Virus record (IMG/VR): IMGVR_UViG_3300017527_000515
Span: 51,458-115,457 of that record
Strand: one strand, 5' to 3'
Length of the DNA stretch: 64,000 bases
Origin: a virus
Shown: positions 9,570 through 56,237 of the stretch, piece by piece
How the letters are laid out: each line of letters starts with the position of its first letter
How positions within the stretch are numbered: the stretch's first letter is position 1
Translations under genes and position numbers: made by a program
Notes under the pieces: model-generated
The model's input: only the letters and a program-made list of their open reading frames with translations
What the model was told of the DNA's origin: nothing
Database searches by the model: none

Positions 9570-9580
9570 ATTGCCTCCTA

Positions 9581-9628
9581 TAAACAAAAATAGGGAACAG
9601 ATATAGCACTACGCCATCTCTGTTCCCT
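9581..9628 (-). terminator. Rho-independent terminator candidate
   Basis: On the minus strand, a perfect 10-bp stem AGGGAACAGA / TCTGTTCCCT (9628-9619 and 9601-9592) encloses a 17-base loop. It is followed immediately by ATTTTTGTTT (9591-9582), a classic U-tract. It lies after the 521-aa gene and just before the ribosome binding site of the 104-aa gene. Since the gene downstream has no room for its own promoter after the hairpin, some read-through or antitermination is expected. Confidence 0.75.
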
Positions 9629-9662
9629 TCCTTAACTTTAGAATAGAATTATACAGCGGCAT
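9609..9662 (-). CDS. Possible 17-aa leader peptide overlapping the terminator
   Basis: A mini-ORF, ATG at 9662 to TAG at 9611-9609, encoding MPLYNSILKLRKGTEMA. It has GGGAGG 7 bases upstream. Its last codons run through the left arm of the terminator hairpin and its stop codon falls in the loop, so a translating ribosome would keep the hairpin from forming. This layout resembles a leader-peptide attenuator, but the ORF is very short and could be chance. A TATAAT inside it (9653-9648) offers a competing reading as a promoter. Confidence 0.3.
   Translation of the reverse strand: MPLYNSILKLRKGTEMA
9648..9653 (-). promoter_or_regulatory. Possible -10 element (TATAAT)
   Basis: A perfect TATAAT on the minus strand within the 136-base gap upstream of the 104-aa gene. 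No convincing -35 hexamer lies 16-18 bases upstream (the bases there are GGGAGG-like), and the extended -10 TG is one base out of register. If used, transcription would begin just before the terminator hairpin, which is odd. Low confidence. Confidence 0.2.
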
Positions 9663-43000: not shown

Positions 43001-46000
43001 ATAGTACCAGAACCTCCCGGACCGTGTATGCCCTTAGCTTCTTCTCTCATAGCCTGGCCCTGGATAGCAGCGGCCTGCATGTCCTGGGAGAATTTATAGC
43101 TTCTAGCACTTTGTCCAGTGGCCTTAGGTCTGGAAAGATCACTGGCTTCTGGAAATAACGATAGAGTTGTTATACCTTCCTTGGCTCTAGTAGATAAGAC
43201 ATCTAATATCCTATCCATTTCGTAAACTATTTCAGCTTTGGCTGCCAGCTCCTGGGCATAACTCTCAGCTGCTACTTCTACTTCTTCTTTATTAAAATCT
43301 GGATCTTTAGAAAGTAGCTTTTCTCCATGCTTTCTAAAATCCTTCAATAGCTTCTCAGAAACATCTATCTTCTCTTCCCTAGTCAACGTGGGAACTCCCA
43401 CAAGATCAGCCAGTTTTTCTATCTCTTTAATCTGATCTTCTGGAGCCTTTTTTAATATATCTCTAGTAAGACTAGGTAATTCTTCCTCTAGTAGAACTCT
43501 GCTTTTTAGAGCATCTAGACTTCTGTCGACTTTGGTTATATCAAATCCTTCAGCTTGAAGCTTCTTAAACTCATCGTCTATTAGTAATTGGTCTCTATGG
43601 ATATTATCCAGAGTACTCTTGACTAATTGAGAATAAGCTCCAGCATCTAAACCTTCAGCAGCTTCAGCTATAGCGTCTTGTATGTTTCTAGCAGTAGCCT
43701 TGGCTTGTTTATATTTCTTTAATAATTCCTCTTGCTCTTTAGGTTTCTTTCTTAAGAATTGTACACCTTGAGGCACAGTAGGTTCCCCATACCTCTCCGT
43801 GAATCTCTTTTCTTGTCCCTTAAGATTAGATTCCTGACGTGTTATATATAATGGTAGATTAGGAACTGTGATATGTTCACGTACATTGATACCACCTGCT
43901 GCTATTTCTTCTTGTATAAGATTTTTAGCATAAGATTTAGGATCTCCTATCTGCGCACGCTTATCTGGGGATAGCTTTTCTATATTCCTTAGAATACCTT
44001 CCATGGCGCCTTCTCTTACCTGGTCTGCCATTTCGCGGAAGAATGATTCTAAACCAGTAGCCTTGACTGCCATGTCAATCAGCTCGTCTCTATCAGCTCT
44101 GCTCAAATCGAAGGAGCTATACTCAGTACCTCTAGCTTCATAAAGTTGCTCTAGTTCTTTTCGTATAGTAGAGGTATCCATCTTACCAAGTCTTAGCTTG
44201 GTAGACTTATTAACTGCCGCTTCAAAGTCTGCTATCTCACCCTCTGGGAGTAAGGAAGCCCATAGTTCAGTTACCCCATCATACCCTTGTGCTATACGGC
44301 TTTGTATTTCACCGGCTATGGTAGACCCACCAGCATGCTTAACATCCATACCCTTCTGGATGGCAAACCTAAATACCTCATTAAATTTGGTATAAAAGTC
44401 TCTGGCTATCTCATCCTGGCTGCCGCCTAATATTCCTAGATTAGGATTACGGCCAGAGAAGCCCTCACTGGGTTTAAATTCAGCCCCTCCAGTACCTAAC
44501 AGACCAGAACCGAATCCAACACTAGATTCTGCTAATCTATTAAGTCTGTACAGAGCTTCTGTTTCAATACCTGTATGAATCTTAAATAATTGGGCCTCTA
44601 CCGCATCCCTGTATTTAGATTCGAAAAGCCTGCTTCTGACTGCTGCCTGGATCTCATCTACAAAAGTGGTACCCATAGCAGTGTCTAACTCTTCTATAGC
44701 TTTATATATATCCTCAACAAAGCTTACTCTTTTTTCTATACCGCCTTGTTGTTTAACCGCCTTAAGCTCACTAGCTACATCGCCGAATGGAGATTCTACA
44801 TCTCCTACCTGTTTTAGTAGTACGTCTCTGCTGGAACTAGATAGTATAGTATCCTGTATTATACCTTTTAGTACCTCATTAATGCCTTCTACACCTGTAC
44901 CACCTAGACCTAAAATACTCAACTGCTCACTAGGAGTAGCATACTCTAATGTAGGAGTCTTTAGGGCAGCTGTGGGATCATCTGGATCTATAGATGCCTG
45001 ACCAGTTAGAAACGGTTTGACTAAGAAATCAAACCCCTTCTCTTTAGGGAATTTCTTATAAAAAGACTCAGCCATTTCTGACAAGATGGCATCACCTGTA
45101 GGTTGTTGGGAACCAAGCGCATCAGCAGTGAATATATCTCTATATACAGATTGTAGGCTATCGTTGAACTCAGCTACACTCTTATGATGTTTGGCTATCT
45201 CCTCTCTAGCTTCTGCAGTTCTAGCAGTATGTACAGCTATTTCATCACCATCGAAGTCCAACTTGGCGGTATGAGCAGCGTACTTTGGAGTAACCTCTGA
45301 CACGGCCCTGGCCAGTTTGTCCATCAAAGCAGATAATTCATCTACTCTGGTTTGATCCACCGGCATATCGTTAGCGTCTGCTTGTCTAAATAACTGCTCA
45401 CGCTGTTCATGTAGACCTTCGATTATCCCTTTAACCGGAGCTATTATATCGTTTAGTTCATCTAGATTTAAGTCTGGCGCGCCTGGAACCACAAACGCAT
45501 TCTTAGCTCTTTCTCCCTGCGTACCAGATAGTAGTTCTGCCTCGTAAGGAACAATAGAAGATACTCCAGTAAATGGATAACGGATAGCCTCCACAAAAGT
45601 TTTAGTTCTTTCTAACTCTTGTGCAGCCAGTTCGGAAAGAGGACCATCATCACCTACCAAATCCTCTAGTCGTTCTCTATAACTTAGTATATCATATAAC
45701 GTACCGTCTATCTTACTAGTCTGAGCACGCGGTCCTTTCTTGCCAAATTGAATCTTCTGCTCAAACTCAGATATAGGCAATTTTTTAGCGGTAACTTCTG
45801 GTATACCTAATTGGTGCTGCCTTAGTACTGGGAATCCAGCCTTACGTTGTTTGGCTATTCTTTTGCCGTGCTTTGTCGAAACAGATTGTATATCATTTAT
45901 AACATCAGCCAGCGTATTGGCCGCATCATCTGGTAGTTCTGATGAAACAGAAGCTAAAGCTTTTTGGAAGTCCGTAAATTCCTGTGTCCTATCCACTATA

Positions 46001-49000
46001 GCATTAGTGGCTTTCTTCATTACAGCTGGGAACTTACGTGAGAATACAGCTGTACCTATAGCACCTTCTTTACCTACCGCGGCCTCAGCCAAACCGTGGA
46101 AATAATCTATCTTGGCTTTCTGTAGGTTATCAAGTGCCTGTTCGTATTTAAATTGTAACTCTGCGTCTACATCAATACCTAATTTAGCTGCTAGTTCTAG
46201 GCCTTGACCCTTCTGTACATCAGCAGCTAAGCGATACAGTTTCTTCTCAGTGACTGCCATCTCGTTAGCCATGAGTTTGTGCTTATCTTGAAGTGCCGCT
46301 AGTAGATCATTAGGGTCATCAGTAGCTCTACTCTTGAATCTGGAGTCACTCTCTAATACTTTCTTGAACATAGCTATGTTGTCAAACTCACCTTGTTGTA
46401 TTTCAGCTATGCCTTTTACTACAGTATTATATGTCTCTTGTGCTGACGGTCCTTTACCTATTAATAAGTCAGATGCTCTACCTATAGCTGTAGCTAAGGC
46501 AGCCTGCTCTGATTTAGTGCCTAATTGTTTTTGTAGAAATTGCTGTACGTTCTCGAACTCTGTTGGCCCTCTTCTTACTTCTTCGCCGTCTATTATCCTA
46601 GCCGGAGCCTCAGTCTTAGATAGAGCGTTAGTTAGAGTATCAAATATCTTTCTGAGATCAGCCGGTGCTTCTGGAGACTTTGAGTATCTAAGATTTTGAG
46701 CCTGTTTCAACATCTCCGCTACTTCTTCGAACACTCTTTTCTGTACAGTAGTAGCCAACTCACCCTTACCGGTTAGTAGATCGCTTTGGGCTGACTGTCT
46801 AGACAGAAGCTCTGCTTGCTTTTCTGCTGCTCTAGGATCTCCAACTCGGAGCATCTCGTTGAGCTCCATCTCCAGTTTTTCTATGTCAGCTTGTAGAGTG
46901 GCCGGTCTATCTAATAACTCTTTGGCCTTCTTGGCCATATTAACCACGTGCTGTAGTCTACGACCTATATTTTCTACACCTCGCTCTCCGCCTATCAGTT
47001 CCTCTGCGTAAGTACCTCTTGCTAAAGCTCCTGGTACATAGAAAGGCTCGCTCTCTCCAGCCTGACCACCTACCTTAGGTATGTCAAGGAAGAAAGGTTT
47101 GGAGAATTTCTTAGTATCAAATATAGTATCTTTAAGGGTACGCGGATCTGTTTCATCAGCTTTTTCGCTAAGAATACCAGTAGTTTGGTCAAAGTACTTA
47201 ACGGAGCTCAGGGTTACCTTATCAAGAACATTTATCTGTCTTTGTTGTAGCGTACCTGTCTCATCAGCCATGAACTGTAGGGCCTTTAAGAACTCCAATT
47301 GTTTTCTCTGATTGGCGTTGGTAGAGCTCGTGATTTCATCAATTAAAGCAGACTGCTCTCCGAATACAGTAGAGTACGCTGACAATACTGGTATATCCAC
47401 ACTGGCGCCCTTTATACCTCTACGCACATCTTCTTTGCGCCACGGCTCGGTTTCCCCCGTCTCCTGTACAATAGATAGGAACTTAGTACCTACTATACTC
47501 TTACGTCTCTCACCAAATTCATCTATAACAGTGGAATAGTAATTAGACATAGCCTCTAGAGCTTTAGCTCGTTCAGCTATGATCATTTCCATCTGGCGTT
47601 TTTCTTCTTCTGTGTCTCCTGAGGCTTTAGATTTAGCTAGGGCAGCGGCTAATTGTTTTATCTTATCAGTATCACCGACGGTTTCAAAACCTAAAGCGCT
47701 TGATACCTGGCTAAGCTCACCTGCCTTACCGCCACCACCTAATAATCTCTCGTACTGATTTTGGGAGAATTTGGTAGGTAGTGTAGTGAATCCCCGTTCA
47801 CCAACGTCTGTTATGTTACCAAGTACTGCCTCTAGAACTTCAGGCTGTAGACCACGTTTACCTATACCGACTGAACTTATTCTAACATCGATGGCTTTTT
47901 CTTTTACTAATGCCCCACCTATCTCATCTGTAAATAATTTCTTTATTTGTTTGATTCCAGTTACATCATCTGCTAAGCCGGTCTCGCCGCCTGCCAGCTG
48001 TCTACCTGTAATTGCCTGGAATGCTTCGGCTGCTTTCTTGAAAACTCCAGCCTGTTGTGCCTGCTCTTCTGGTACTACTATAGCAGTTTTAGCGTCTCTA
48101 AATAGGTCCAGTATGAATTTATTACCAGACGCTGTTAGCATTTTCTTCAGTATAGCTACATCAAAACCCTCTGATGTCAGCTTCTTTTCATACTTATCTA
48201 CTACCTCTGCCAGAAGCTCTCCCATGCTCCTAGGCAACACTGCCACACCTAGGCCAGCCTTCTGTCTCTCCTCATCAGTAAGGACCTTGACTTTAGCTTT
48301 TGGGAATGCCTGTAGAATTTTACCTATCTCAGTAGCTTCGCCTTCTTCTAACCCTCCAGGAGAAACACTTACCCCCTTAGATCCGTATCGGGATGTGAAC
48401 TTTCTACCGAAGGAGTTTAGGAATACCTCTGTCAATCTGGCTTGCTGTACCTCTACCTCCTCACCGCGGACTACAGTAATAGCACGTTGAATCTCATCTA
48501 TGAAAGCCTGGTCGGCTCTACCTTTATATTGTTCTGGTACACCGAGCACCTCTTGGATTTTGTCCAACACAACTGCAATATCTTTATCTTTTATTGGTCC
48601 TGCTTGTAGATCACTAACCCCAGGCGCAGTTTCCAACCCACCACGGATTCTACCTCCGGGGGCTGGTCTTACTAATGTTTTAGTTATAGTAGTCAGCGCT
48701 TTAGCCAAATTACCAGACACTAGAATCTGATCTTCCATTGTACCGGCAGTATGGCGTAGTTCTGTAAGAACATTAAAACCATAACCCTTTGTGCCTAATC
48801 GTCCTGCAGATATCAGTTCGGATTCCCTCTCAGATCTTAGAGCTGGAAATTCAGTCCCTATACCTTCAAGAGTTGTGGCTTTAAATTCCTTTGCTAGTCT
48901 GTCTAACTCTGTCTTGGATGAGGATATAGCATTGGTAACACCAGCTATATTCCTACCAGTCTGAGTAAATTGAGCTCCGAACGGAGCAAGTTCAGGAAGG

Positions 49001-52000
49001 ATGTCGGTGTACATTTTGGTAGAAAAGGCATCCAATGCACCTAGATATTTGGTACCTTTGTCAGTCTGGCCAGGTCTGTAAAACTCTCCTTTACCAGCAA
49101 GTGCTTCTGGTATGCCTAAGGAAGATACAGTACGTACACCCTCTTTTAAAAGTTGTTGATTAGTTATGTAAGAATCTCTTACTATCTCGTTTAATCTAAC
49201 ATTAAGATTCTTTATGAACTCCTTCTGGGCTGCAGGATCTAGATCTCTACGGCCTTCATCAGCGTAAACATCTGATGTTCTTGTTAGAAGGTTTAATACG
49301 TTTTCTTGCTGCAAACCACGACGTGGGCGGCCAGGCTCTATTAAAGGTAGAGACTGTACCACTTGGTTGATTGCGTTCTCATACTCACGGATGGCTTTGT
49401 CGAATTGGGGCTTAGAACCTAATCCTTTTAGGGGCTCTACCCCAGTTTTTTCGCTGCCTTTTAGAACTCTCTGGATAACATCATAGATATTTTCGAACTC
49501 TATTTTGTCCATAGACTTCACAATATCATATGCTGATAGCCCTGCTGCTCTAAGGGCATCTAACAACTTATTTACATCTCTGTCTACTTCATTAGCCTTT
49601 AAGGCTTTCTCCATGTCAGCTATTAATCTAGATCCGCCCCTACTCTTACTTCCTCCTAATTGGACGGCGCTTACATAAGCTGCACTAGGAATCTGCTCTC
49701 TCAATGCTTGTAGGTTTGCCTCGTTAGCGCGGGCATAGTCCTCCAACATCTGGCGAGCCAGATCTCTAGCCTTGTCTAATTTTAATCCAGCAGGCTTAAC
49801 ACCAACTTCTCTAATCTGAGCAGCAAAATTCTTTTCATATACTAAAGCTTGTTGTTCTTGTAGCTTCTCATATATCTGCTCAAAACCAGTCTTAAACGTA
49901 CCAAACTTCTGCAGTGCTCTCTGACTACCTCTAGCAGTTTCAAAGGCAGGCGCACCTGTTTTAGTCAGCCTAGCTGCCGGTAGACTTACAGTTCTCACTA
50001 GCTTTTCTTCTTTTAATGTTCTAGCAGCTTCAGTTCTACCGACAGTAGCTTTGAATACTTGCTCTAGTGTGGCTCTGTCTTGCCCCAGAACCTTGTTTAA
50101 TTGTTTTACTATGTCAGCACTAGGCAACACACCTTTGATATCGGTTTGTTTAATGTTTACCAGATCGCCTTGAAATCTCTCTATTTCTTTAATCTGTTTG
50201 ATCTGATCTGCAGTGACGCCCTTTAACCATTCAGCTATTTTGCCAGTAAGGTTGGCGGGGGAAGGGAAATTAGCTGCTAGTTCGGTAGCTAACACATCAG
50301 TTAGTTCTTTAACCATGGACTCGGGGCTGCCTTTGGTGGCTGCACCGCGGCCCTTAACGAATAACTGTCTCTTGATTGCCTCGACATTAGCTATCTGGAA
50401 AGCGTGTTGTTTGCCAGCTTCTTTTACATTAGCGCCTGAAACAACCTTGAAGAAATCCTGTACGCTCTTCTCAGAACCGTCTCTTACGATCGACCAACGA
50501 TCGCCTGCTTTTTTAAACTCGGAATTTAATGTAGTAACTATATAGTCTTGTAGATCTACTAATGAAGATGATAGATCATTAATACGTTGTTGTATAAGTT
50601 GTTTATGTTTCTCTTGTGCCTTAGACGAGAAAGTCCCTTCGAATTCTAAGTTGATTCCTTTTTTAGTAGCTGGTAAGGCAGCATCTGGGTATGCACTTAC
50701 AGATGCTGGTCCTCTTAGCCTTGAGTTTAACAAGTCTATTTGTTTAATTAAAGGACTTAGATCCTTAGAACCTTGCCCAGGCAGAGCTGGGGCAGGCCTC
50801 GGAGCAGGTTGTCTGGTTGCCTTCTCAAAAGATTCTGCGGCTTTAGTCAGCTTCTTTGAGGCTTCTGTTGCTTCTTTAAGACCGGCCTCAAATGCTTTAT
50901 CAGTTTCTTGTGGAGATTTGTTTATTTTCTTCTGTACTTCATTAACTAAAACTCTTAGCTGGTCTAATTTCTTTGTGTTTTCACCAGCTATACCTCTGCC
51001 TGCAGCCTCTTTAATAGGAGTAGGCTTCATCTCTCTTAATACTTTTACTAATATATCTTGCTCTGAGGTGATCGTAGCTAGATCTTTTTTGTCTCTGGTC
51101 CCAGATGCAACTTCTTTGGTGACCTTTGCTACTTCAGCCTGGCTCTCTCTGATTACCTGCTTGATGAGTTTACTTATCTCACCGAAATAATTCTTTATAT
51201 CTTTAGCTGGAAGATCGGGTAGATTAGACTTACCACCTGACGGGGTCGCAGCCTTAGAACTCTGATCTAATTTCTTAGTTAAACTATCAGTACTCTTGAC
51301 CACCTGTTTCATGGTGTTATCAAGTTGTTTTATTTCTTTAGGAGCACCTAGTTGTTTGGCTCCAGAAGGTTTATATTCCAGCTCTACTTGTTTAGATATA
51401 CGTTCGAACTTAGTTAGGAAGTCGTCAAAGACTTTCTTGAACTTATCAGAGTCCAATATTTTCCCTGGTACATCTTTTACAGATCTAAATTTCTCTGCCA
51501 TCTTCTGCTTGGTGTCTCTAACAGCATCACCAAGGTCTCTCATTATACTTTCTTGTTCTTTGGTGAGAGTCTTAACAGATTTCTTTAAATCCTTATAATC
51601 CTGGGACAGTTCCTTGGCTTCTTTTCTAAGGTCAATAAGAGACTTTATTACCTTGGGAATCTCTGTGACGTCTATTCCACCATCAGATTTCTTAAGCTTA
51701 GCTATGGCCTCCACTGCTTTGGTGGTAGCGTCTGCACTTCTTTGAATTGATTTGTAGGTTTTGGTAGCCTCTTGTATCGACTTGCCGAGTTCAGTGGATA
51801 CACTAGATCTAATGGAATCACCAATAGCCTTGGAAATAATTTTTGAACCTTCGGGGCCCAGTTCTACACCAGTTTGTCTTGATAGGGATGTATTAAGTTT
51901 ACCTATAGCAGCAGCAACTTGCTTATCTACATTACGTAAAGCAGCCTCCACACTCTTAGTGTGTTCAGGACCACTGCGCTGACCACGTTTAGACATCTCC

Positions 52001-52323
52001 CTAAGGATAGAGTTCGCCGTATCCAGGGAGACATTCTTGACTATTCTCTCTAGGTCACCTTTATTTATAGGTTTTTCAGATGGTTTGCCTGCTGGTCCGC
52101 CAGTCTGTTGGTTTCTTAAGACTCTACGTAGACTGATCTCTAGTTGTTTACTGAGTTCATTAGACAGAGTCTTATTGGCGTCTTTGGACACCTTGTCCAT
52201 GACTTTTCCAATCTCACCTGCTAATTTCTTCTCATCTACTCCAGCAGACTTCGAAGGTCTGCCAACACTTTTTTGGGCTCCTCTGCCCTCAAAAATGTTG
52301 TGATTGATGGTGTACTCGGCCAA
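28078..52323 (-). CDS. Giant tape measure polyprotein with RNA polymerase-like and nuclease domains (8081 aa)
   Basis: A single uninterrupted frame of 24,246 bases. It starts at TTG 52323; AGGGAGGT lies 6 bases upstream and no better ATG exists. Order of parts: helical N-terminus (1-~1000); mixed region leading to an RNA polymerase-like core (around 2200-2700, DFDGD at 2356-2360); Gly-rich linker (3101-3150); RecB-like nuclease (around 3250-3470); TP901-type core (4028-~4400); long coiled coils (to ~6370); two tape-measure SGEFV/PGEYV-(I)-x-x-x-A-S-A-x-KLG motifs (Glu6380, Glu6669); toxin-like module with HEIGGH (6776-7010); three AEGG repeats (7032-7327); nine-residue repeats (7896-7948). 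It sets tail length and is expected to enter the cell during injection. Confidence 0.95.
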   Translation of the reverse strand: MAEYTINHNIFEGRGAQKSVGRPSKSAGVDEKKLAGEIGKVMDKVSKDANKTLSNELSKQLEISLRRVLRNQQTGGPAGKPSEKPINKGDLERIVKNVSLDTANSILREMSKRGQRSGPEHTKSVEAALRNVDKQVAAAIGKLNTSLSRQTGVELGPEGSKIISKAIGDSIRSSVSTELGKSIQEATKTYKSIQRSADATTKAVEAIAKLKKSDGGIDVTEIPKVIKSLIDLRKEAKELSQDYKDLKKSVKTLTKEQESIMRDLGDAVRDTKQKMAEKFRSVKDVPGKILDSDKFKKVFDDFLTKFERISKQVELEYKPSGAKQLGAPKEIKQLDNTMKQVVKSTDSLTKKLDQSSKAATPSGGKSNLPDLPAKDIKNYFGEISKLIKQVIRESQAEVAKVTKEVASGTRDKKDLATITSEQDILVKVLREMKPTPIKEAAGRGIAGENTKKLDQLRVLVNEVQKKINKSPQETDKAFEAGLKEATEASKKLTKAAESFEKATRQPAPRPAPALPGQGSKDLSPLIKQIDLLNSRLRGPASVSAYPDAALPATKKGINLEFEGTFSSKAQEKHKQLIQQRINDLSSSLVDLQDYIVTTLNSEFKKAGDRWSIVRDGSEKSVQDFFKVVSGANVKEAGKQHAFQIANVEAIKRQLFVKGRGAATKGSPESMVKELTDVLATELAANFPSPANLTGKIAEWLKGVTADQIKQIKEIERFQGDLVNIKQTDIKGVLPSADIVKQLNKVLGQDRATLEQVFKATVGRTEAARTLKEEKLVRTVSLPAARLTKTGAPAFETARGSQRALQKFGTFKTGFEQIYEKLQEQQALVYEKNFAAQIREVGVKPAGLKLDKARDLARQMLEDYARANEANLQALREQIPSAAYVSAVQLGGSKSRGGSRLIADMEKALKANEVDRDVNKLLDALRAAGLSAYDIVKSMDKIEFENIYDVIQRVLKGSEKTGVEPLKGLGSKPQFDKAIREYENAINQVVQSLPLIEPGRPRRGLQQENVLNLLTRTSDVYADEGRRDLDPAAQKEFIKNLNVRLNEIVRDSYITNQQLLKEGVRTVSSLGIPEALAGKGEFYRPGQTDKGTKYLGALDAFSTKMYTDILPELAPFGAQFTQTGRNIAGVTNAISSSKTELDRLAKEFKATTLEGIGTEFPALRSERESELISAGRLGTKGYGFNVLTELRHTAGTMEDQILVSGNLAKALTTITKTLVRPAPGGRIRGGLETAPGVSDLQAGPIKDKDIAVVLDKIQEVLGVPEQYKGRADQAFIDEIQRAITVVRGEEVEVQQARLTEVFLNSFGRKFTSRYGSKGVSVSPGGLEEGEATEIGKILQAFPKAKVKVLTDEERQKAGLGVAVLPRSMGELLAEVVDKYEKKLTSEGFDVAILKKMLTASGNKFILDLFRDAKTAIVVPEEQAQQAGVFKKAAEAFQAITGRQLAGGETGLADDVTGIKQIKKLFTDEIGGALVKEKAIDVRISSVGIGKRGLQPEVLEAVLGNITDVGERGFTTLPTKFSQNQYERLLGGGGKAGELSQVSSALGFETVGDTDKIKQLAAALAKSKASGDTEEEKRQMEMIIAERAKALEAMSNYYSTVIDEFGERRKSIVGTKFLSIVQETGETEPWRKEDVRRGIKGASVDIPVLSAYSTVFGEQSALIDEITSSTNANQRKQLEFLKALQFMADETGTLQQRQINVLDKVTLSSVKYFDQTTGILSEKADETDPRTLKDTIFDTKKFSKPFFLDIPKVGGQAGESEPFYVPGALARGTYAEELIGGERGVENIGRRLQHVVNMAKKAKELLDRPATLQADIEKLEMELNEMLRVGDPRAAEKQAELLSRQSAQSDLLTGKGELATTVQKRVFEEVAEMLKQAQNLRYSKSPEAPADLRKIFDTLTNALSKTEAPARIIDGEEVRRGPTEFENVQQFLQKQLGTKSEQAALATAIGRASDLLIGKGPSAQETYNTVVKGIAEIQQGEFDNIAMFKKVLESDSRFKSRATDDPNDLLAALQDKHKLMANEMAVTEKKLYRLAADVQKGQGLELAAKLGIDVDAELQFKYEQALDNLQKAKIDYFHGLAEAAVGKEGAIGTAVFSRKFPAVMKKATNAIVDRTQEFTDFQKALASVSSELPDDAANTLADVINDIQSVSTKHGKRIAKQRKAGFPVLRQHQLGIPEVTAKKLPISEFEQKIQFGKKGPRAQTSKIDGTLYDILSYRERLEDLVGDDGPLSELAAQELERTKTFVEAIRYPFTGVSSIVPYEAELLSGTQGERAKNAFVVPGAPDLNLDELNDIIAPVKGIIEGLHEQREQLFRQADANDMPVDQTRVDELSALMDKLARAVSEVTPKYAAHTAKLDFDGDEIAVHTARTAEAREEIAKHHKSVAEFNDSLQSVYRDIFTADALGSQQPTGDAILSEMAESFYKKFPKEKGFDFLVKPFLTGQASIDPDDPTAALKTPTLEYATPSEQLSILGLGGTGVEGINEVLKGIIQDTILSSSSRDVLLKQVGDVESPFGDVASELKAVKQQGGIEKRVSFVEDIYKAIEELDTAMGTTFVDEIQAAVRSRLFESKYRDAVEAQLFKIHTGIETEALYRLNRLAESSVGFGSGLLGTGGAEFKPSEGFSGRNPNLGILGGSQDEIARDFYTKFNEVFRFAIQKGMDVKHAGGSTIAGEIQSRIAQGYDGVTELWASLLPEGEIADFEAAVNKSTKLRLGKMDTSTIRKELEQLYEARGTEYSSFDLSRADRDELIDMAVKATGLESFFREMADQVREGAMEGILRNIEKLSPDKRAQIGDPKSYAKNLIQEEIAAGGINVREHITVPNLPLYITRQESNLKGQEKRFTERYGEPTVPQGVQFLRKKPKEQEELLKKYKQAKATARNIQDAIAEAAEGLDAGAYSQLVKSTLDNIHRDQLLIDDEFKKLQAEGFDITKVDRSLDALKSRVLLEEELPSLTRDILKKAPEDQIKEIEKLADLVGVPTLTREEKIDVSEKLLKDFRKHGEKLLSKDPDFNKEEVEVAAESYAQELAAKAEIVYEMDRILDVLSTRAKEGITTLSLFPEASDLSRPKATGQSARSYKFSQDMQAAAIQGQAMREEAKGIHGPGGSGTIFGGGGVGGQFPMTGGVVPVHIHSVAQGVGVFFGGGGGTGARRDYTDQLNPDFAPQQQTKSALSEIRDQHDQHGEASIRSLQSQLKDYKKISSDFDRHSENIGKPEFDKLQKKYFPGVEVGPRGADVNLEQEYNQLKKQFFTNLNNVFTASKFKGGGADLGELIKGNRQGSQLEAITGQLLGLDAEELKSDYVQSAFDIGTALHAKMQKKIKDEAEAAGRGGEVEIEKFVYLKPKEFVEGVRGPITGFIDVAYKNAQGQVEKISDIKTTGETFAKFESISRAIGPEGTIALADILDKEIPEHIRQKLEDYRSQLNVYLGALVQSGQAAPGVQASIDFIPSEDAGLTTPAKSVTFGFDPERLKSDLETLKTARELVNNYVLDLSTSIEDVPEEHQDLVSKLRKRVSGKSPAFSKARNLKSYLLEQELDKIYGVTEQSDEFIEEYVQLSRKAFEFMEGKEGVYKETRANFKAAENRAKDIGQAMKEDPEYGRATFGEKITGGTPEERTLGKDKVKKFPDPLKDQLAAISELHQGSIAIQSGLSDLNFNENIEKMHTDIKSALSGGAGEAPPTGPQFSKLLTELVEGDYITFQESMKAWQLWRISMGDFLIFQAKQAEEVFDVANAQGPATREFSDFRKRVEKSREFIVKSLGKTTDIYTKDRRFLLPDLAKQAGVFQTPEDLYKKTKQPFGEGDERTRGIYKNLIDKLEAGGLGAPAEEIRKLVDELADVDEAAKRVLMDVDLFERKGRDATEAWDFEKVAKRARVLREALSQYSRFNLSDEFQTDVEKKFQVRSLLQYLKQIEQVYGKIDLGRLQRGAFGEYETGAVKVPTFLPPNQQQALHRRNIEKFKQFAERPGPESDTPGTGPRVGESFSYFEKVTDSAGNVLRNFRHDFKKFGETTDDTAGKVENYTHRTTDLIDKMHMAGGTFRSAARRVIMWGAAATLVYGGVQQLKDSVGELADIEVSIAQLRMVMNPLEADFDALTQSAVMFAKEYGVSINEVLRGMKIFAQQGLKQSEVIERTRVSTLAANVSTLSASEATEALTAAMKSFGTEMGSADMALDAWSETEARHAITAADMANAIKKSAAAAKNAGFTFNELNGIVAGIGSVTRQSGKEVGTAMRFIARRLFSEKGPKALGEIGIPTITATGENRRGFDILSDLSKQWAMLTNAQKLNVAQSLGGTRQYNALLVAMDNWDEVLDAIEDSTNSKGSAERRNVEIMKTYAKQLEQTRAAATELKMELGKFIFPVFKGGLKALKTVFEFMSAIPTPVKAAGAALTLFFGYAAKGVDIFDKLVEVFGKGKGVIDAFVRSVSKEFDISAFEIFGGKGGPQLEGIKSFAKGVPDALKAAGLDDLHSGFGKLTYVIKEAGMAFNTWAAAGGTSAEEMGKTIEGLGDEVKKWAERTDLFTDVGQLLATKIPGWKDDLTIAVINVMEEVAKNSGRAFELFGKYFGEAGAQFAKFIGDTDPGLLKAITPMAITVGALIPAFKELASRIQETGMTAQDYAQSVYNSRRVQEDQIKNLTTLSRQYDRLQKKVKEVNAVEADPKLKEVRKASDNYTHPLIALGDIQKDATKWANELAMVNNELVLSYDKQGNAILKLSGDYKEYIANLQRASALELAKTDIDVLKRFTQDLTKVDFGESIKNILGTALGEVPGFGPLLKDIVKVSPAKQMEMLTGRLNDLLLARSQNPLSTAFDEDISTLQDALGKLKKIYDGTAKDFNKTLAGIFKFPGASAVDRDTIARLLGDPELLRGFQFAVEVDPVINAANAQRELERALKFPNAPKGTSTLFDPTAAGGRSTINFPEFLNLPEIQGRDLQGATILQQVFPTRRAVIGAAKDITKALLEGSGIIQKEAKKGTKLVTGDIVTFLTQPAARAGIAGQQGVVEVKKNVDGVLEAFVTYYNYKAKEGVGELETKSIDEVADMVEAIFPAGRVQSELENRLENLSTFVTGAAAGIVGLDEKAFKKDFDLGARFYSDISTTTALQGQRGFNFQTGEFGEVTNLQKQWASDTRKYFLEPMEKYNKSVRRFDKAGSLEKTSDASEEVYQELLAQQAVLKNNQVVVQYAAVFADLSKTIEQGTRVLAENIAIEEARQESVKVTSGLLAGLPEGLDNIDTGVRSVQDLTVKQLALLNQPQYQGAAQNFRSADVRRQALIQRREELARAKVAIETITATQQGIGTVIGPDATPEEIKGFIEKSTVLGDVVGATLSKDINNLTKSNVTALDPIATSLEELVSLGQTNQVLTDKIIGLQERVAEFDSRPEDEQGGAEARRISLLIAHEIHKAAGAREGASPRERAVLEERINVLVDTMNKFTTFGRGQAAVGLSPSRLLPGAGLSREEYLQRSFRGLQSNELTERFKTDAGPRTKLGLRGFTALPGVGGPIPIPKLKSIPGFAESDELKQLVAIQEAEKKLSEKTFFNSKNLLKVSAAVAAFQSFSKSNSSAALAVMNEQLVGQKAALLEAKKAGDEGRIATGQSEVAALEKAIAAEQKSLDFNTIVASLANLETGTIALARAFGISETNVKRIGGASLVLYAAMQAASKITGEELPESAKEFGKELGKTLKEVGESGDVSIGTLKDLGSAGKEFKGDFENRVKEITGTTREGIREAFKARLTGLQDLPEAEIEKRAAVLRDEASKGGAGGLKKILAAALASTLAGTFAELTGPGVRKADIERLSEQRGELLDKIASEWPQVAELIITELLDQSKRAQEDLKKPLDSEAQKQALDVFYNAQQALDALAQTTGGVNSEIAALTREMEGNADTMHRLELFEGIRKQVQDFVRDLANQAVQLEVARKYSLGAFLNRDTRGFAGDAQLPLERSGMSTQQRIFASADEDLRGFMTAFKSTQDIITRTEQEIVRLEQLRQKYQEDGVYNQLSALEGMDSEIAGIKSERDELISKQQRSVDEGKMRIHQQLMEAEKKLAEAEKRRAEYAKSAAGENANAAKELDKTIESTKKYADSLANAMNPAVVAAYNGTVLLGEAMFKLNDALTEVSVQDAIDELASIKEFRAKTDKFLGGSGADALQLVDPATRLEAARGGINLKEFDTRRNVEEAEILRAMQQQGQTSELLQRYLSLDSKYEGEARAKEQQKQDERFKRQTDPVLTLMTDLERITRNNNVSPELKATAKAIQEQAGAFLKAAPDEIINAEGKKERRGITVEQIDELTSKFEGLKNSLKEQYGKEFQKMGLASNQELMIDHLSSIAESTRGSKEGLTSVAGYMEQMISKLGDPLEVKVVDSAIKKAAGGAIFGPGGPKDDNIMAMLSSGEFVINQASAAKLGRKNLEYINKYGKLPGLQGGGFAYESEALKYLRSYTPAEQSFVGPQMPDHIAAARQRQAETQKIISLIDSKIKAVQTARENIIGLNKKDIEEGRTPQGVTELIELNKKLLQLQEYKNQLEEAAAERANAHEETRLRLIEENKTGFNKVDQSINVQTEKTAAGQGEIKQSIDAQTGVLTDQTSVLNNIDGGIKALLDVIKSKAPDINRQAFVDKGYDQHEAERLRRIQKVPYTDPKFNVKSIDSRTEHEKRTGRAQGGKVFGEGGPKEDKVPAMLSPGEYVIKAASASKLGMSALEYMNKEGQLPPGMANGGFPDKLVSSREYDETNPLYVGPSGRKMRSAYGAPVSTITGKPFMTKAEYDEIYRPPTKDELKSFGKLATSTVLDASPIVGDVKSAQEAITGIDVITDEKLGPLSRGLAGLAVLPFVPGSIKHLGKSGKALKSLDTAVDLSGSVGKATNKADLAKNIDILNEEFKLARSNHPVAGLMTNPNLKVSTKAKEGQKLTTTFKEGQDIVSSSRGLAKASDLASRRKVVAGGFEHEIGGHVTESAVKKFLKDPSLIGKHIDDPEIAKTLTKERLQKMKDFMDSFIAQPPVSKYAERFTGDASKFGRENFAEFVKLVKAGEIKSPLVEEYTKLFTGFAEGGIMGQIGDWLKTAKEFYFGREVEATEEELAEMAEDARSFSYLTSKDTKKNILDAVDPHNNKGGGGMMKRKHFAEGGMAGRIKDWLKTTKDFFFGRDVEVSEEDLARGAESGRATSYLTSKETKKNILDAAGDIDSKGMGGMIKKYGDGGKIKPFVPKTEPVRSKEEKEKLKQQLDALKQRHEKKRKIGEFLRNIGAGKLLSDDMKNDIYHKYGIALSEPAEFRGMGGRMKRKHYAEGGIIGQIGEWLKTAKEFYFGREVEATEEELAEMGSDARTFSYLTSKDTKTNILDAIDKKGMGGRMKRKKYAEGGLARRFTEINGEIVELDENGNIVGGLPDDAMTTARRDQGTFANNKAYRVNTGIVDPDPSFGAGQPTARFAELTVQEESKRLAALNEQAFAEKALVGKHTYEEQLAAAKASGNVDVYNQIQAEHAKTIQRENRQALKRDKEVYDALREPGILPAPKGKGLFNYTFDSKTGIVSAEGLSHGVQSKYDLNELAYKERKEAMARGQLPLPTVGPGYEATPGANPGKKLQDTRAKVARAQLVAGISRKAMQGEVDPQAPDRNVLENLYGTAGIGRDTQLAYEYYNKLRYLSENDPNFNRQDELKSLEAMVMSGNVDMNKIKPLMKDIKLTKNFHDVRKKVDENKYGIKDPRLAFLASPHLFKEYVRLKEAGDEVGAAAAKAMLEKAAINAEDIANQFGMAKDAATVDSLAMLYGRFGKGKLEPAELRAVRDQIKIAGQGRKQDFEKETRGFSAREKLGRMFEAMKQGFYEVPKQFYKDTFSSNKSRPVMHNGGVVAQTGTVFAQKGETILPKGFQAGGMVDDNLTRASLTSTTVKIDGSEVASQIADQVKSAIESSEVKVEADAKVRVDTTDAKVPVDLEGAVVKVDTDSAVVRVDTADVTVPVDAAGVASEISNAISQALANATVDVNPSANGSVGADSLDSISNAVVDVQDKLITVKGELEERMVNLESKALTANNVKPEIQSAVSEAMNQVTHDINTNRNNISEITSRVTRFEGRMQYEVGEARRYAQDAQNFATRPGVG
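28480..28638 (-). repeat. Six nine-residue beta repeats in the tape measure C-terminus
   Basis: Residues 7896-7948 read as units VKVEADAK / VRVDTTDAK / VPVDLEGAV / VKVDTDSAV / VRVDTADVT / VPVDAAGVA. The second residue cycles K, R, P, K, R, P, so a 27-residue super-repeat has been duplicated. Alternating Val suggests short stacked strands. A coiled coil follows to the end of the protein, which may anchor the tape in the hub. Confidence 0.8.
30343..31230 (-). repeat. Three 59-60 residue repeats in the tape measure (AEGG...WLK...YLTSK...ILDA)
   Basis: Copies at 31230-31054, 31005-30826 and 30519-30343 (residues 7032-7090, 7107-7166, 7269-7327). Each starts AEGG, has an amphipathic WLKT(A/T)K(E/D)F segment, FGR(E/D)VE, an acidic helix, and YLTSK(D/E)TK-x-NILDA. 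Copies 1 and 3 are nearly identical in protein; copy 2 is diverged. Each is followed or preceded by a basic M(K/I)KRK stretch. These are coding repeats, not CRISPR or integration sites. Confidence 0.9.
31294..31998 (-). other. Toxin-like hydrophobic module plus HExxxH segment within the tape measure
   Basis: Residues 6776-6820 read ASPIVGDVKSAQEAITGIDV, then LGPLSRGLAGLAVLPFVPGS, closely matching the pre-toxin module of polymorphic toxins (FIPxVGDxKxxxEAxxGxD, then LPxVPG). About 110 residues later comes FEHEIGGH (H6930, E6931, H6935) and, further on, ENFAEFV (E7006). The order HE...H...FAE recalls zincin metallopeptidases, but the spacing is HExxxH rather than HExxH, so catalysis is uncertain. 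Confidence 0.45.
39124..40242 (-). other. TP901-type tape measure core domain
   Basis: Residues 4028 to ~4400. It shows the family pattern: RRVIMWGAAATLVYGG, FAKEYGVSINEVLRGM, SATEAL-type helices, AGFTFNELNGIVAGIGSVTR, GTAMRFIARRLFS and QWAMLTNAQKLNVAQSLGG, followed by a hydrophobic stretch PVKAAGAALTLFFGYAAKG. This is the most conserved tape measure domain and probably includes the membrane-active segment. It confirms the identity of the whole gene. Confidence 0.9.
41914..42576 (-). other. RecB/Cas4-like PD-(D/E)XK nuclease domain within the tape measure
   Basis: Residues ~3250-3470 contain all four expected motifs in order: GTALHAKMQ (His3311), ITGFIDVAY (Asp3357), ISDIKTTGE (Asp3372, Lys3374) and YRSQLNVYLGAL (Gln3420, Tyr3424). 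Spacing fits RecB/Cas4/AddB-type nucleases, where D, D-x-K and Q-x-x-x-Y build the two-metal site. All catalytic residues are intact, so activity on DNA is plausible. No helicase or Fe-S cysteines are attached. Confidence 0.8.
42874..43023 (-). other. Gly-rich linker between polymerase-like and nuclease parts of the tape measure
   Basis: Residues 3101-3150 contain runs GPGGSGTIFGGGGVGG and FFGGGGGTGARR around a short beta stretch. It is the clearest low-complexity break in the first half of the protein. It separates the RNA polymerase-like half from the nuclease and tape core, so it is a candidate hinge or proteolytic processing site. Confidence 0.6.
44224..45726 (-). other. RNA polymerase (beta-prime/YonO-like double-psi barrel) core within the tape measure
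   Basis: Residues ~2200-2700. KLDFDGDEIAVHTARTAEAR (from 2354) matches the beta-prime catalytic loop NADFDGDQMAVHVPLSxEA almost residue for residue; D2356, D2358 and D2360 would bind the catalytic Mg. Upstream, AIRYPFTGVSSIVPYE (R2248) parallels the NRxPTLHxxxIQA segment. Downstream, QKGMDVKHAGG (D2660, K2662) recalls the D-x-x-K-(T/H)-G motif of YonO- and RdRP-like single-chain polymerases. The full polymerase probably also uses preceding residues from ~1100. Strong for the fold family; activity is inferred. Confidence 0.8.
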
Positions 52324-52373: not shown

Positions 52374-53393
52374 CTATCTCTTCCGGCGACGCGCTTTCTT
52401 TTTAACAGCGGTCTTGTCCTTGATCATCTGTGCTTCTCTTGGCGTGGTGTAATCTATGTCCTCATAAAGTTCATGAGACTTAGTTACGATAACTTCTTCT
52501 TTGTTAAATGCTGATAACTTACCTTTGTTGCCATGTCTATTTTTATCTCTCTCGGCTGCGTCCTCTCTAGTCCTTTCCTCGTAATACGATTTCATATACG
52601 CATCGAGAGCGTCATCGTCTTCGACGATGGTGTCTGGCGGTCTATCCTTTGGCATCATTTCATACACGTTCTGATAGAAATTAGACCAGTACGCCAGATT
52701 TAACATGTCATTTGTATATTGTGATGTCGGCACACCAAATAATGGGTCCGACACCTTCTGACTTGTAACATAACGTATCCTCCACAAGCTATGTCGTGCC
52801 AGATATCTTATTGTCTTAGTATCTATACCTGATCTAAACCTTAGAAACTTTGTTAGTACTACATCTCTGAAGGCTAAATCATTTTCTTTCAGTAAGTCCT
52901 CAAAAGTTTCCCAACATTTGTTGCCTTCTTCGTCTTCTACACATGCCCAACAAAAATATAAAGCTCGTTCCTCTTCAGCCTTGCTTTCTGCTGACATTAT
53001 GAGCTTCGACGTTCTTTTATATTCTAAAGTGAGGATCTGCTCATCAATCTTGGTTATAATTTTCTTAACCCTGTCCTGATTAGCTTTAACCTTAGTAGTC
53101 TTACTAAGGATCACCTCTTGGGCTTCTTTCTGAATCCTAAGTTGATCTAATTTATCTTGATCCTCCTCAGTGAATATATTTCTTTCCCTGATTAGAACCT
53201 CAAGATCTTCTATAGGCAACATACCGGACTCTACGGCTCTTTTATAAGCTTTATCATATATAAGGTCTGCCTTTGCTTTAAGCTCGTTGTCGGGCTGTCT
53301 AATAAACAACAGGCGGCCTTCTAAATTGAGCAGCTCAGTGCCGGTAAATATCCGAGTTAGATATCGTTCAACGTCTTCAGACTTTAATTCCAT
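52374..53393 (-). CDS. Tape-measure chaperone candidate 2 (339 aa)
   Basis: The start is ATG 53393, sharing one base with the previous stop (TAATG). Helix-rich and charged. It aligns with the preceding gene: RLLFIRQPDNEL...AVESGMLPIEDLEVLIRERNI against EYHVVAPNANDI...SLTEGITTSAEMMDILRRRGI, and CVEDEEGNKCWETFEDLLKE (151-170) against CMVVDSKGEKVWDSYEDYLR (142-161). The C-terminus is basic (KKKARRRKR). Position just before the tape gene is where tail assembly chaperones (lambda gpG/gpGT type) sit. Role inferred from position and paralogy. Confidence 0.82.
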   Translation of the reverse strand: MELKSEDVERYLTRIFTGTELLNLEGRLLFIRQPDNELKAKADLIYDKAYKRAVESGMLPIEDLEVLIRERNIFTEEDQDKLDQLRIQKEAQEVILSKTTKVKANQDRVKKIITKIDEQILTLEYKRTSKLIMSAESKAEEERALYFCWACVEDEEGNKCWETFEDLLKENDLAFRDVVLTKFLRFRSGIDTKTIRYLARHSLWRIRYVTSQKVSDPLFGVPTSQYTNDMLNLAYWSNFYQNVYEMMPKDRPPDTIVEDDDALDAYMKSYYEERTREDAAERDKNRHGNKGKLSAFNKEEVIVTKSHELYEDIDYTTPREAQMIKDKTAVKKKARRRKR

Positions 53394-54172
53394 TATTCAG
53401 AAGTCTCTTCCTTTTTAGTAGTTTTCTTGGCTGCAGTTTTCTTGGCTGTAGTCTTACTTTTTCTGGGCGCTCGTTTCTTAGGAGCAGGCTTCTTTTCAAC
53501 TTTAGCCTTCTCCTCTTCTTCTACAGCTTCAAGAGCTTTGGCTGCTTCAGCAGCTTTTTCTAAGATGTCTGTTTCAACCTCTTTCATGGCCTGTGCTTCC
53601 GGTGTTTTTTCCAGGAAGTCAGATTCCAATCCTTGGAGGTACAACATGATTTCAAAGCGTGCTTTAAGTGCCAGGGCTTGATTCTTCTCTCTAAGATAAT
53701 CTTCATAACTATCCCAGACCTTCTCGCCCTTACTGTCAACTACCATACAGGAAGTTAGATATTCTAATCTGGCGTCATCGGCTAGCTGTTCACATGTATT
53801 AGCCATAGGACCATTAAGGCGCTGGTTCCACTGAAACAATTCATCCCTTGCCTCAGCTACTTCCACCGCCAAATCACGTTTATCATCCATAGCTTCCGCG
53901 GTATCTAGGGCCCAGATCTTTTCATTGAGCTGGTTGGTTAGTTCCTGAGCTCTCTGTTCAAACTCGGGGCCAATAATACCTCTACGACGTAAGATGTCCA
54001 TCATCTCAGCACTCGTAGTGATCCCCTCAGTTAGGGATCTAGTAAATGTCCTACTATAGTTCCAGTCCGCTTCCCTAATGTCGTTGGCATTAGGAGCTAC
54101 GACATGGTACTCCTTCTGATCCGGTCCGAGGAAAGTCCTCTTCTCAACATCTTTCTTTTCTTCGTCTGCCAT
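53393..54172 (-). CDS. Tape-measure chaperone candidate 1 with histone-like basic tail (259 aa)
   Basis: The start is ATG 54172 with GGAGG upstream. Helical and acidic to residue ~220, then a 38-residue Lys/Ala/Pro/Thr tail (KKPAPKKRAPRKSK, KKTAAKKTTKK) resembling histone H1 tails. It is paralogous to the next gene over most of its length. Two such genes before the tape measure fit the G/GT chaperone pair, but here they are separate ORFs coupled by TAATG, and I see no good slippery heptamer. The basic tail could bind nucleic acid or the acidic tape protein. Confidence 0.82.
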   Translation of the reverse strand: MADEEKKDVEKRTFLGPDQKEYHVVAPNANDIREADWNYSRTFTRSLTEGITTSAEMMDILRRRGIIGPEFEQRAQELTNQLNEKIWALDTAEAMDDKRDLAVEVAEARDELFQWNQRLNGPMANTCEQLADDARLEYLTSCMVVDSKGEKVWDSYEDYLREKNQALALKARFEIMLYLQGLESDFLEKTPEAQAMKEVETDILEKAAEAAKALEAVEEEEKAKVEKKPAPKKRAPRKSKTTAKKTAAKKTTKKEETSE

Positions 54173-54196: not shown

Positions 54197-54445
54197 TTAT
54201 TGTCTCTGGACTCTAATAACGTCTTCAGAGACAGCCTGGTATTCCACTTTATATTGATCATCCATTTTACGATGGATGTTTCTGATACAATTGTTTCCAA
54301 CCCTAAGAATCTTGGATCTTAGAGGTCTAAAGTGGGGTTCGGGACAGGCAACCTGTGCAAAATCCAGCGCCTGTTCAAACATGAATGTAACCTCTTCCTT
54401 TATCAGATCCTTGAGTTTCTGCATATGTTTATCCTCTACTGCCAT
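54197..54445 (-). CDS. 82-aa small tail-assembly-region protein
   Basis: The start is ATG 54445 with AGGAGG about 10 bases upstream. Helical N-terminus (KLKDLIKEEVTFMFEQALDFAQ), then CPEPHFRPLRSKILRVGNNC and a charged C-terminus. It lies between the tail tube and the chaperone genes, after a GC-rich hairpin. No family recognised. Position suggests an assembly factor or a small tube-associated protein. Confidence 0.8.
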   Translation of the reverse strand: MAVEDKHMQKLKDLIKEEVTFMFEQALDFAQVACPEPHFRPLRSKILRVGNNCIRNIHRKMDDQYKVEYQAVSEDVIRVQRQ

Positions 54446-54512: not shown

Positions 54513-56111
54513 TTATCCGTTTCTGCGGATTTTGTTGCCTGACAAGATATCAGCCAGATCAACTTCACCCTTAACAACATACAAGTCATTAGTTGAACGG
54601 AAACCAAAGGTCTGGGTAGCATTCGAGCCCAGATCCAAGGTGTAAGCTTCATCAGTAATCTTCAAATGCTCAACAACGATGGTCTTCAATGGATACTCTT
54701 GATCATCTTCAATGTACGTACCCATCGTACTATTATACCAATAATCCTGACCAATCAGCTCGTTGTCTGCGCCAAGAATCTTACGGTCAGCACCAGTTCC
54801 ACCACCAGCTTCCTCATCAGTCTGAGCGTAAACTTTCACCACTAGTAGAAGATTGTCCTTACCAAACAAGTCGGCAAGATCGATCTCATCTAGGTCGCCA
54901 GATTCAAACTCGGTCAATTTACCAGCAAAACGAGCCCAATGTTCTAGATCGCCAGCTGTAGTATCCATAGTCACTGTGATAGGAATCGGCAGTGTTAATG
55001 GACGGTCATAAGGACCAAGATGACCTAACTCTGTGAGAGCTTCACGGGTAAGATCAGATGTGATTGTAGCAGATGTGAATCTCCATGCTATAGCGTCTTC
55101 CCATCCAGCAGCGTAAGTCTCATCCGGGTCAATCAGGTAAACTTCTACCTGGCCCTGACGAAGAGCTCCTACTGATTCGGGTCTGTCGTCGGCATCTAGA
55201 ATTTCAAAGTATTTATTGCTGGTAGTTGAATCATAAGCATCGGCAGCATAAATAACCTCGACTCTGTCTCCGGCCACAGGCGCGTTAGCACCAGTCGGAA
55301 AATACAAGGTATCTGTGGCTGAATTATACACGTAGTTTTCAGCGTCAGAAGCAACACCAGCTTCAACTTCCATATTCACCGCTTCGCCGACTGTGTTATT
55401 AAACCAAGTGACACCTGGAGCGCCTGACAATGTTCGCCTTAAGAAACCCATAGTACCATCACTCAAATCAACGATGTTTCCACCGTCTGTTGCGATTGTC
55501 ATCTGTGTTTCAGCAGCAACATCCAAATATTCAAAATTTACGAATCTACCATCATTCAATAACCACATCTTCTGGTCTGTTTCAGCACCATAGTTCTCGG
55601 TCGCGTTAGCACCAGTGGTGTAACTAAACTCTAAACTATTAATATAAACCTCATCCATCCACATGGTCTGGTCGATGTTATCGGCCAGTGTACCTAGTGA
55701 ACACTCGTCCTGGACAGGAGCCCATAGCGAAACACCGGTTAAATTACCACACGTAATAGCGAAGTCGGGTAGACCAACACCGTGGTAGTAATCACCTGTC
55801 TCAGCACCGTACTCATCCACAACGGCCAAGTTTGCACCGCTGGAAGTAGGGGCCATCAGCATGTCTCTCTTCTCGCCTGCTGCGACCTGAGCCAGAATAG
55901 CAAGTGTGCGAACATCTCCAAAATCGTTGGTATTCAGCGTAACCGCCACAGCGGGTACGTCGTCGACCACGTCGACAATGTCCAAATGACCAAGCTCGAA
56001 GATATCCTCGGAGGTGAATGTCGTGGTGCTTCCAAGAGACTGGACCCTATAAAGAACCTCACCGTTGCACCATACACTCTGTGATGCATAGATTATTCTA
56101 TTTCTAGCCAT
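54513..56111 (-). CDS. Major tail tube protein with two duplicated tube domains (532 aa)
   Basis: The start is ATG 56111 with AGGAGG upstream. An internal duplication is clear: TSEDIFELGHLDIVDVVDDV (Glu39) and LTREALTELGHLGPYDRPLT (Glu361), each followed by P-x-x-(V/I)-x-VT-(L/M)-x-T and GD; and later NSLEFSYTTGANATENYG against VVEHLKITDEAY...SNATQTFG. About 120 extra residues (~195-320) sit between the two domains. Position before the chaperones and tape measure fits the tube. A double-domain subunit would build trimeric rings, as known for phage T5 pb6; that is inference for this phage. Confidence 0.85.
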   Translation of the reverse strand: MARNRIIYASQSVWCNGEVLYRVQSLGSTTTFTSEDIFELGHLDIVDVVDDVPAVAVTLNTNDFGDVRTLAILAQVAAGEKRDMLMAPTSSGANLAVVDEYGAETGDYYHGVGLPDFAITCGNLTGVSLWAPVQDECSLGTLADNIDQTMWMDEVYINSLEFSYTTGANATENYGAETDQKMWLLNDGRFVNFEYLDVAAETQMTIATDGGNIVDLSDGTMGFLRRTLSGAPGVTWFNNTVGEAVNMEVEAGVASDAENYVYNSATDTLYFPTGANAPVAGDRVEVIYAADAYDSTTSNKYFEILDADDRPESVGALRQGQVEVYLIDPDETYAAGWEDAIAWRFTSATITSDLTREALTELGHLGPYDRPLTLPIPITVTMDTTAGDLEHWARFAGKLTEFESGDLDEIDLADLFGKDNLLLVVKVYAQTDEEAGGGTGADRKILGADNELIGQDYWYNSTMGTYIEDDQEYPLKTIVVEHLKITDEAYTLDLGSNATQTFGFRSTNDLYVVKGEVDLADILSGNKIRRNG

Positions 56112-56237
56112 AATGTCTCAATCCTCCTATGATATTAATTATCTCGGAAAAATTATCAGGTTGGGTTTAAAAATACAAATCAATCCTACATACCATTACC
56201 GGACTGAGGCGGTCTAATAATAGTAGTCCTTTCCCTC
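56112..56237 (-). other. 126-base intergenic gap upstream of the tail tube gene
   Basis: One of the two longest non-coding gaps in the window. The minus strand is AT-rich near the tube gene (ATTTTTAAA, then CTGATAATTTTT), which could hold a late promoter, but no -35/-10 pair has good spacing. A loose GGACT/AGTCC inverted repeat has a 19-base loop and no U-tract. The tube's AGGAGG site is at its downstream end. Confidence 0.3.

Follow-up and report, generated by a model that had tools for sequence, protein, structure and literature searches.

We found that the window, the 64,000-nucleotide stretch of viral DNA analysed here (IMG/VR record IMGVR_UViG_3300017527_000515, positions 51,458 to 115,457), encodes a 532-amino-acid protein that is very probably a long-tailed phage's major tail tube protein, with two homologous tube domains, a variable middle domain and rings of expected C3 symmetry. 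The gene (54513..56111, minus strand) starts with ATG and has an AGGAGG ribosome-binding site, read directly, 11 nt 5′ of the start codon (56123..56128, minus strand). It encodes tube domain 1 (residues ~5–185; 55557..56099, minus strand), a beta-rich middle domain of ~130 residues (residues ~186–312; 55176..55556, minus strand) and tube domain 2 (residues ~313–516; 54564..55175, minus strand). All three were placed on an AlphaFold2 model, domain 1 also by VIA alignments and the internal repeat, and domain 2 also by the position at which most single-domain chains align (model residues ~303–520).

Database searches with the window protein returned no match in Pfam at E ≤ 1, a best PHROGs hit at E = 0.053 (a family without assigned function), and no match among PDB sequences by either single-sequence or profile search. 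A profile of 42 family members gave only weak, scattered matches (best PHROG, E = 0.0025; best Pfam, E = 0.023). The protein matched no phage by tblastn, and no sequence relative of the lineage was detected in the phage records covered by that search. The family alignment (A2) combined the window protein (P0001) with 41 of 64 fetched loci (L002–L065), omitting 15 split or part-matching loci (L018, L019, L038, L039, L041, L042, L043, L045, L046, L047, L051, L057, L058, L061 and L065), the incomplete locus L064, and apparent near-duplicates recognized by like coordinates and terminal residues (L007, L009, L020, L022, L026, L036 and L055). The divergent relatives L048, L052, L059 and L060 have tube proteins 45–49% identical to that of the window (48% for L059, 47% for L060). 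The contig carrying a 62% identical relative (L065, JAUVDT010000035.1) was binned with a gammaproteobacterial MAG; this placement may stem from the binning and does not establish the host.

The first-pass annotation had read an ELGHL motif and a NAT-type motif, each occurring twice about 320 residues apart, and both pairs are real. ELGHL stands at residues 39–43 (55983..55997, minus strand) and 361–365 (55017..55031, minus strand), 322 residues apart, and ANATENYG at residues 168–175 (55587..55610, minus strand), in the turn and strand that follow the long strand 146–165, lies 328 residues from its second-domain counterpart SNATQTFG at residues 496–503 (54603..54626, minus strand). These repeats could in principle reflect chance or local convergence between unrelated halves: a repeated 5-mer alone was present in 803 of 5,000 shuffles of the tube protein and is not significant. 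A colinear pair of a 5-mer and a 4-mer was rarer (31 of 5,000 shuffles), in a test that is an approximate stand-in for the degenerate motifs first noted, the real second motif sharing ‘NAT’ and no exact in-register 4-mer. The alignment of the whole domains is the decisive one, and at that level the repeat is significant. BLASTP of the two halves aligned residues 19–187 with 341–514 at 23% identity (E = 2e-5), and their Smith-Waterman score in the window protein was 86, where the highest of 200 shuffles reached 73. By tblastn, domain 1 of the window protein (residues ~18–188) matched the C-terminal half of the protein in 12 of 16 loci (E 0.0007–0.08), several of these loci being near-duplicates.

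Family-wide comparisons bear on the chance reading from both sides. In its favour, the repeat score failed to exceed all 200 of the protein’s own shuffles in 19 of 42 aligned members (it did so in 23), and the HH probability of the two halves was only 20%, although their profile comparison gave P = 0.0011 and a score of 31.3, where 60 column shuffles reached 21.2 at best. Against it, the similarity extends across ~170 residues at the E-value given above, the register is the same in 40 of 42 members (offset 310–344; exceptions L032 and L060), and the predicted model aligns end to end with double-domain tubes. We regard unrelated halves as extremely improbable. The earlier proposal of two fused tube domains is supported by the in-register repeat and by a predicted fold that matches the double-domain tubes of P74-26, T5 and DT57C from end to end.

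The AlphaFold2 model, built from the 42-sequence alignment, had a pLDDT of 82.8 and a pTM of 0.84. As judged from the model and its PDB matches, the protein has the tube-type beta-sandwich, flanked by a helix and bearing a long loop. Its order of strand, loop, strand and helix occurs twice (strands 23–31 and 54–61 and helix 68–73, then strands 347–353 and 377–385 and helix 389–395), and the long strands 146–165 and 171–178 are mirrored by 476–491 and 499–507. In the model, each ELGHL motif lies within the loop that connects the first two strands of its domain, and each NAT motif lies at the turn of the second hairpin. A Foldseek search of the PDB ranked the P74-26 tail tube (8ed0_A) first (E = 2.2e-7), followed by tail proteins of T5, SH-Ab15497 and DT57C. 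VIA-align superposed the model on P74-26 8ed0_A (Z 17.8, 4.4 Å, 312 residues, model 6–516), T5 9iny_A (Z 17.7, 4.2 Å, 312 residues, model 5–531) and pb6 5ngj_A (Z 16.3, 3.8 Å, 285 residues), so that the matches to these double-domain tubes span residues ~4–531; single-domain chains reached Z 8.8 at most (8q01_A, neck of phage 812).

The most conserved parts of the family are the loops expected to join successive rings. Using the mean frequency of the majority residue, we compared nine stretches of the tube protein, among which loop 1 (residues 32–53; 55953..56018, minus strand), which holds the first ELGHL, ranked highest (0.94), with the N-terminus at 0.91 and loop 2 (residues 354–376; 54984..55052, minus strand), which holds the second, at 0.85. 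The second hairpins scored 0.83 and 0.80, domain 1 as a whole 0.77, domain 2 0.69, the middle domain 0.53 and the C-terminal 17 residues 0.51; the N-terminus and both predicted inter-ring loops are thus present and more conserved than the whole domains. The middle domain differs in length and sequence among members and probably occupies an outer position. In T5, according to a review (PMC8718954), deletion of the N-terminus and two loops abolishes tube formation. The ELGHL loops of the model occupy the position of the inter-ring loops in tail tubes, suggesting contact with the next ring; they are also its least certain part (mean pLDDT ~46 for residues 31–50 and 57 for residues 361–370).

In the assembly we propose, each subunit is a single chain of two homologous tube domains separated by the variable middle domain, and three subunits would form a pseudo-hexameric ring (C3). 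The rings would stack at ~40 Å around the giant tape measure protein, and both conserved loops that bear ELGHL would extend into the adjacent ring. The C3 symmetry is expected by likeness to T5 and P74-26, for which trimeric rings of double-domain subunits are described (PMC10034513, PMC5717097); the stacking distance and loop contacts are likewise predicted, the rise given for the P74-26 tube being 40.25 Å.

Group I introns in some relatives fall close to the part of the gene that codes for the N-terminus and loop 1. In 14 of the 64 fetched loci the tube gene is interrupted early on, its first exon standing apart from the rest, and a fifteenth case, L047, begins inside the tube gene; first exons end near codons 14, 37–45 or 52–56. 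Rfam scans of 12 loci placed group I introns within or next to the tube gene in five: L018 (8302–8521 and 9709–9939), L041 (three matches in a row at 9101–9352, 9418–9649 and 9717–9938), L043 (identical in coordinates to L041 and possibly the same phage), L061 (10083–10341 and 10409–10630) and L065 (6876–7108). The other seven gave no Rfam match at the gathering score. In the window the tube gene is uninterrupted, and an Rfam scan of the window found no match.

Gene order points to a main-tube role for the 532-residue protein. The tube gene is followed by three ORFs of 82 (54197..54445), 259 (53393..54172) and 339 (52374..53393) amino acids and then by the gene for an 8081-residue tape measure protein (28078..52323), all on the minus strand. 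The three ORFs occupy the usual position of tail assembly chaperones and are so placed by position only, the 259- and 339-residue products having no significant match in PHROGs or Pfam; in L048, L052, L059 and L060, too, ORFs of 248–255 and 344–347 residues come before the tape measure gene. The 8081-residue protein matches PHROG tape measure families (best E = 2.9e-75) and contains a PhageMin_Tail domain at residues 4096–4289 (39457..40038, minus strand; Pfam, E = 4.6e-26). Its C-terminal part also matches Pfam PT-TG (pre-toxin TG; E = 2.8e-12, residues 271–333 of the piece 28081–32826, minus strand), and residues ~3299–3382, by eye a RecB/Cas4-like nuclease region, weakly match a PHROG annotated as CRISPR/Cas system associated (E = 0.0018). 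No sheath gene was detected in the record by a PF04984 search, which is weak evidence because the record is a fragment, and one terminase family had no match in the same fragment.

The same fold would be expected of a minor protein of the tail tip or the distal tube that has two tube domains, like those in the tail tip of T5. Foldseek also matched T5 and DT57C tail-tip or baseplate chains (7qg9_G, 9ioz_A and 8hqz_L), so that the fold by itself is compatible with such a role. The T5 tail-tip chain 9ioz_A nevertheless scored Z 14.3 against 17.8 for 8ed0_A and 17.7 for 9iny_A, and although 7qg9_A, from a tail-tip entry, scored Z 17.6, its length of 464 residues suggests that it is presumably pb6 itself. 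The gene, moreover, precedes the chaperone-position genes and the tape measure gene, the same place as the tube gene of P23-45, where the order is tube (348 aa), a 164-aa gene and tape measure (5002 aa). No second copy of the tube gene was detected in the record, itself a fragment. On these points a tail-tip function is very unlikely, and the main-tube role is the reading we prefer.

The first-pass annotation had further suggested that a double-domain subunit may suit an extremely long tail, and here the comparisons did not bear it out. A tape measure protein has a rise of ~1.5 Å per residue, and the tails of P74-26 and P23-45 are described as nearly 1 μm long for about 5000 residues, that is, 2 Å per residue. 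At 1.5–2 Å per residue the window tail would measure ~1.2–1.6 μm, or ~0.6–0.8 μm if only the residues after ~3900 span the tail. An extremely long tail is plausible but uncertain for the window phage, as some of the tape measure protein probably serves as globular cargo.

Tape measure proteins in the family vary widely in size. The tape measure core was matched in 38 of the 49 records searched (49 of the 64 loci), 21 of them with a frame of 7024–8654 codons; several shorter frames come from fragmentary records. The largest frames have 14,712 codons (L056 record, 545,322 bases; 288398–332533, minus strand; DFDGD at codon 1998) and 13,617 codons (L062 record). The former is open throughout, with neither N nor repeated 8-mers, and the latter ends within its contig. 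At the other extreme, the frames of L059 and L060 (3909 and 3591 codons) both end within their contigs, whereas those of L048 and L052 (3399 and 3568 codons) run off theirs and are excluded from the range of complete frames, 3,591 to 14,712 codons.

Selection of the double-domain design for its help in building extremely long tails is improbable in light of this range and of other phages. Two divergent members of the same family, L059 and L060, have complete tape measure frames of just 3909 and 3591 codons, and the T5 tail is described as having only 40 rings. Relatives of the P74-26 tube were found by tblastn in phages of Marinitoga (E = 2e-6), of Gordonia (E between 4e-3 and 1e-2) and of Bacillus (E = 5e-3, over 36% of the query); the relative in Marinitoga camini virus 1 adjoins a 1303-residue tape measure protein, and the weaker one in Gordonia phage Niagara (E = 4e-3) a tape measure protein of ~3027 residues. 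Judged by alignment length, double-domain tubes look common: 45 of the 50 viral models listed (of 70 at E ≤ 0.001), from several phage groups, align over at least 500 columns. With one tube family lying beside complete frames of 3,591 to 14,712 codons, the relation of double-domain rings to tail length can be tested.

The adjoining tape measure protein carries conserved polymerase-like motifs and a predicted beta′-like fold, together moderate evidence for a putative RNA polymerase within it. Residues 1306–1321 (48361..48408, minus strand) read GRKFTSRYGSKGVSVS, which we take to resemble cellular RNA polymerase beta, and of 48 loci with an automatically picked long ORF, 40 contain a motif similar to GRKFTSRYGSKGVS at residue 1306. 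The active-site motif DFDGD occupies residues 2356–2360 (45244..45258, minus strand), and Pfam gave a weak hit there to RNA polymerase Rpb1 domain 2 (E = 0.0044, short of the curated cut-off). Of the 64 loci, 38 have a polymerase-like DxDGD in their long ORF, many others being cut before the motif position; it was absent from the 2483 and 2598 codons covered in L048 and L052, and in L016 it was absent from the first stretch and present further on (L084). The polymerase-region search covered 40 of the 64 loci and matched the window region in 35 of 40 records, with no match in those of L048, L052, L059 and L060. DxDGD occurred in all 30 loci of a set selected as the best matches of that search (aligned as the window and 29 of the 30). 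In a further alignment (A4; the window and 29 of 34 loci), both motifs are invariant partly by construction, because the 34 loci, out of 64, were chosen for having both.

The model of tape measure residues 1216–2412 is largely helical (pLDDT 74.1, pTM 0.44). Among the 50 VIA matches listed, 49 were RNA polymerase chains at Z 9.1–9.5; the top-ranked match was talin at Z 9.6, and Z values under ~13 may arise by chance for helical models. Most polymerase matches aligned ~240–290 residues onto roughly the first 500–670 residues of the chain and covered model residues ~472–1184, equivalent to tape measure residues 1687–2399; by chain and length, the matched chains are probably beta′ or largest subunits. 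Foldseek gave E-values not below 0.012 for this model. A profile of the region searched against PDB sequences returned no polymerase, its best hits being coiled-coil kinesin chains (E = 0.003).

A tape measure protein with an RNA polymerase as its N-terminal part has been published for P23-45 (gp96; PMC10770324). The window polymerase region matched no phage by tblastn, its profile did not match P23-45, and hhalign against the P23-45 region gave P = 0.14, though aligned on DFDGD. Common descent of the tail module with that of P23-45 is a possibility, not a result, because no sequence similarity to P23-45 was detected. We therefore offer only tentatively, as a combined picture that we consider rather doubtful, that the window represents a widespread uncultivated lineage with micrometre-scale tails of trimeric double-domain rings (perhaps longer than 2 μm where the tape measure protein has ~14.7 thousand residues), in which the tape measure protein would be an injected RNA polymerase of cellular type and the module would be shared with P23-45 by descent. 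A polymerase-bearing tape measure protein suggests that the P23-45 arrangement is not peculiar to Thermus phages. We found no description of the lineage in titles, abstract openings and selected passages of the literature on large metagenomic phages or giant tape measure proteins, which is weak evidence of absence.

Compared with known tail tubes, the window protein is closest in fold to that of P74-26 and P23-45 (gp93/gp94, PDB 8ED0), which likewise has two tube domains per chain and, at Z 17.8, ties with T5 as the best match. In those phages, too, the tube gene precedes a small gene and the gene for a giant tape measure protein with the RNA polymerase DFDGD motif. Their tube, however, has 348 residues and therefore no room for a middle domain, and it has no detectable sequence similarity to the window protein: the A2 profile found no match in NC_009803 (P23-45), and hhalign against the P74-26 tube family, a profile of six rows, gave P = 0.42. 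T5 pb6 (PDB 5NGJ, 9INY) and the DT57C tube share the duplication or fusion of the tube domain (Z 16.3–17.7), also with no sequence similarity to the window protein detected. For pb6, a trimeric pseudo-hexameric ring is described, to which the likeness here is one of fold only, and its extra domain is Ig-like and C-terminal, whereas that of the window protein lies between the tube domains. The SH-Ab15497 major tail protein (PDB 8XAN) is an end-to-end fold match (Z 16.0, 283 residues) and is shorter, at 306 residues. Domain 2 of the window protein aligns at Z 7.7–8.5 with the single-domain tubes of lambda gpV, SPP1 gp17.1 and the R. capsulatus GTA. The lambda and GTA tubes are built of single-domain subunits in hexameric rings, and SPP1 gp17.1 is described as having one domain per subunit in hexameric rings, unlike the two-domain window protein. 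The fused double-domain tube is already known from T5 and P74-26, and the 532-residue protein is a further case, with a middle domain between its tube domains, that extends this design to a sequence-unrelated group of uncultivated phages present in many metagenome records.
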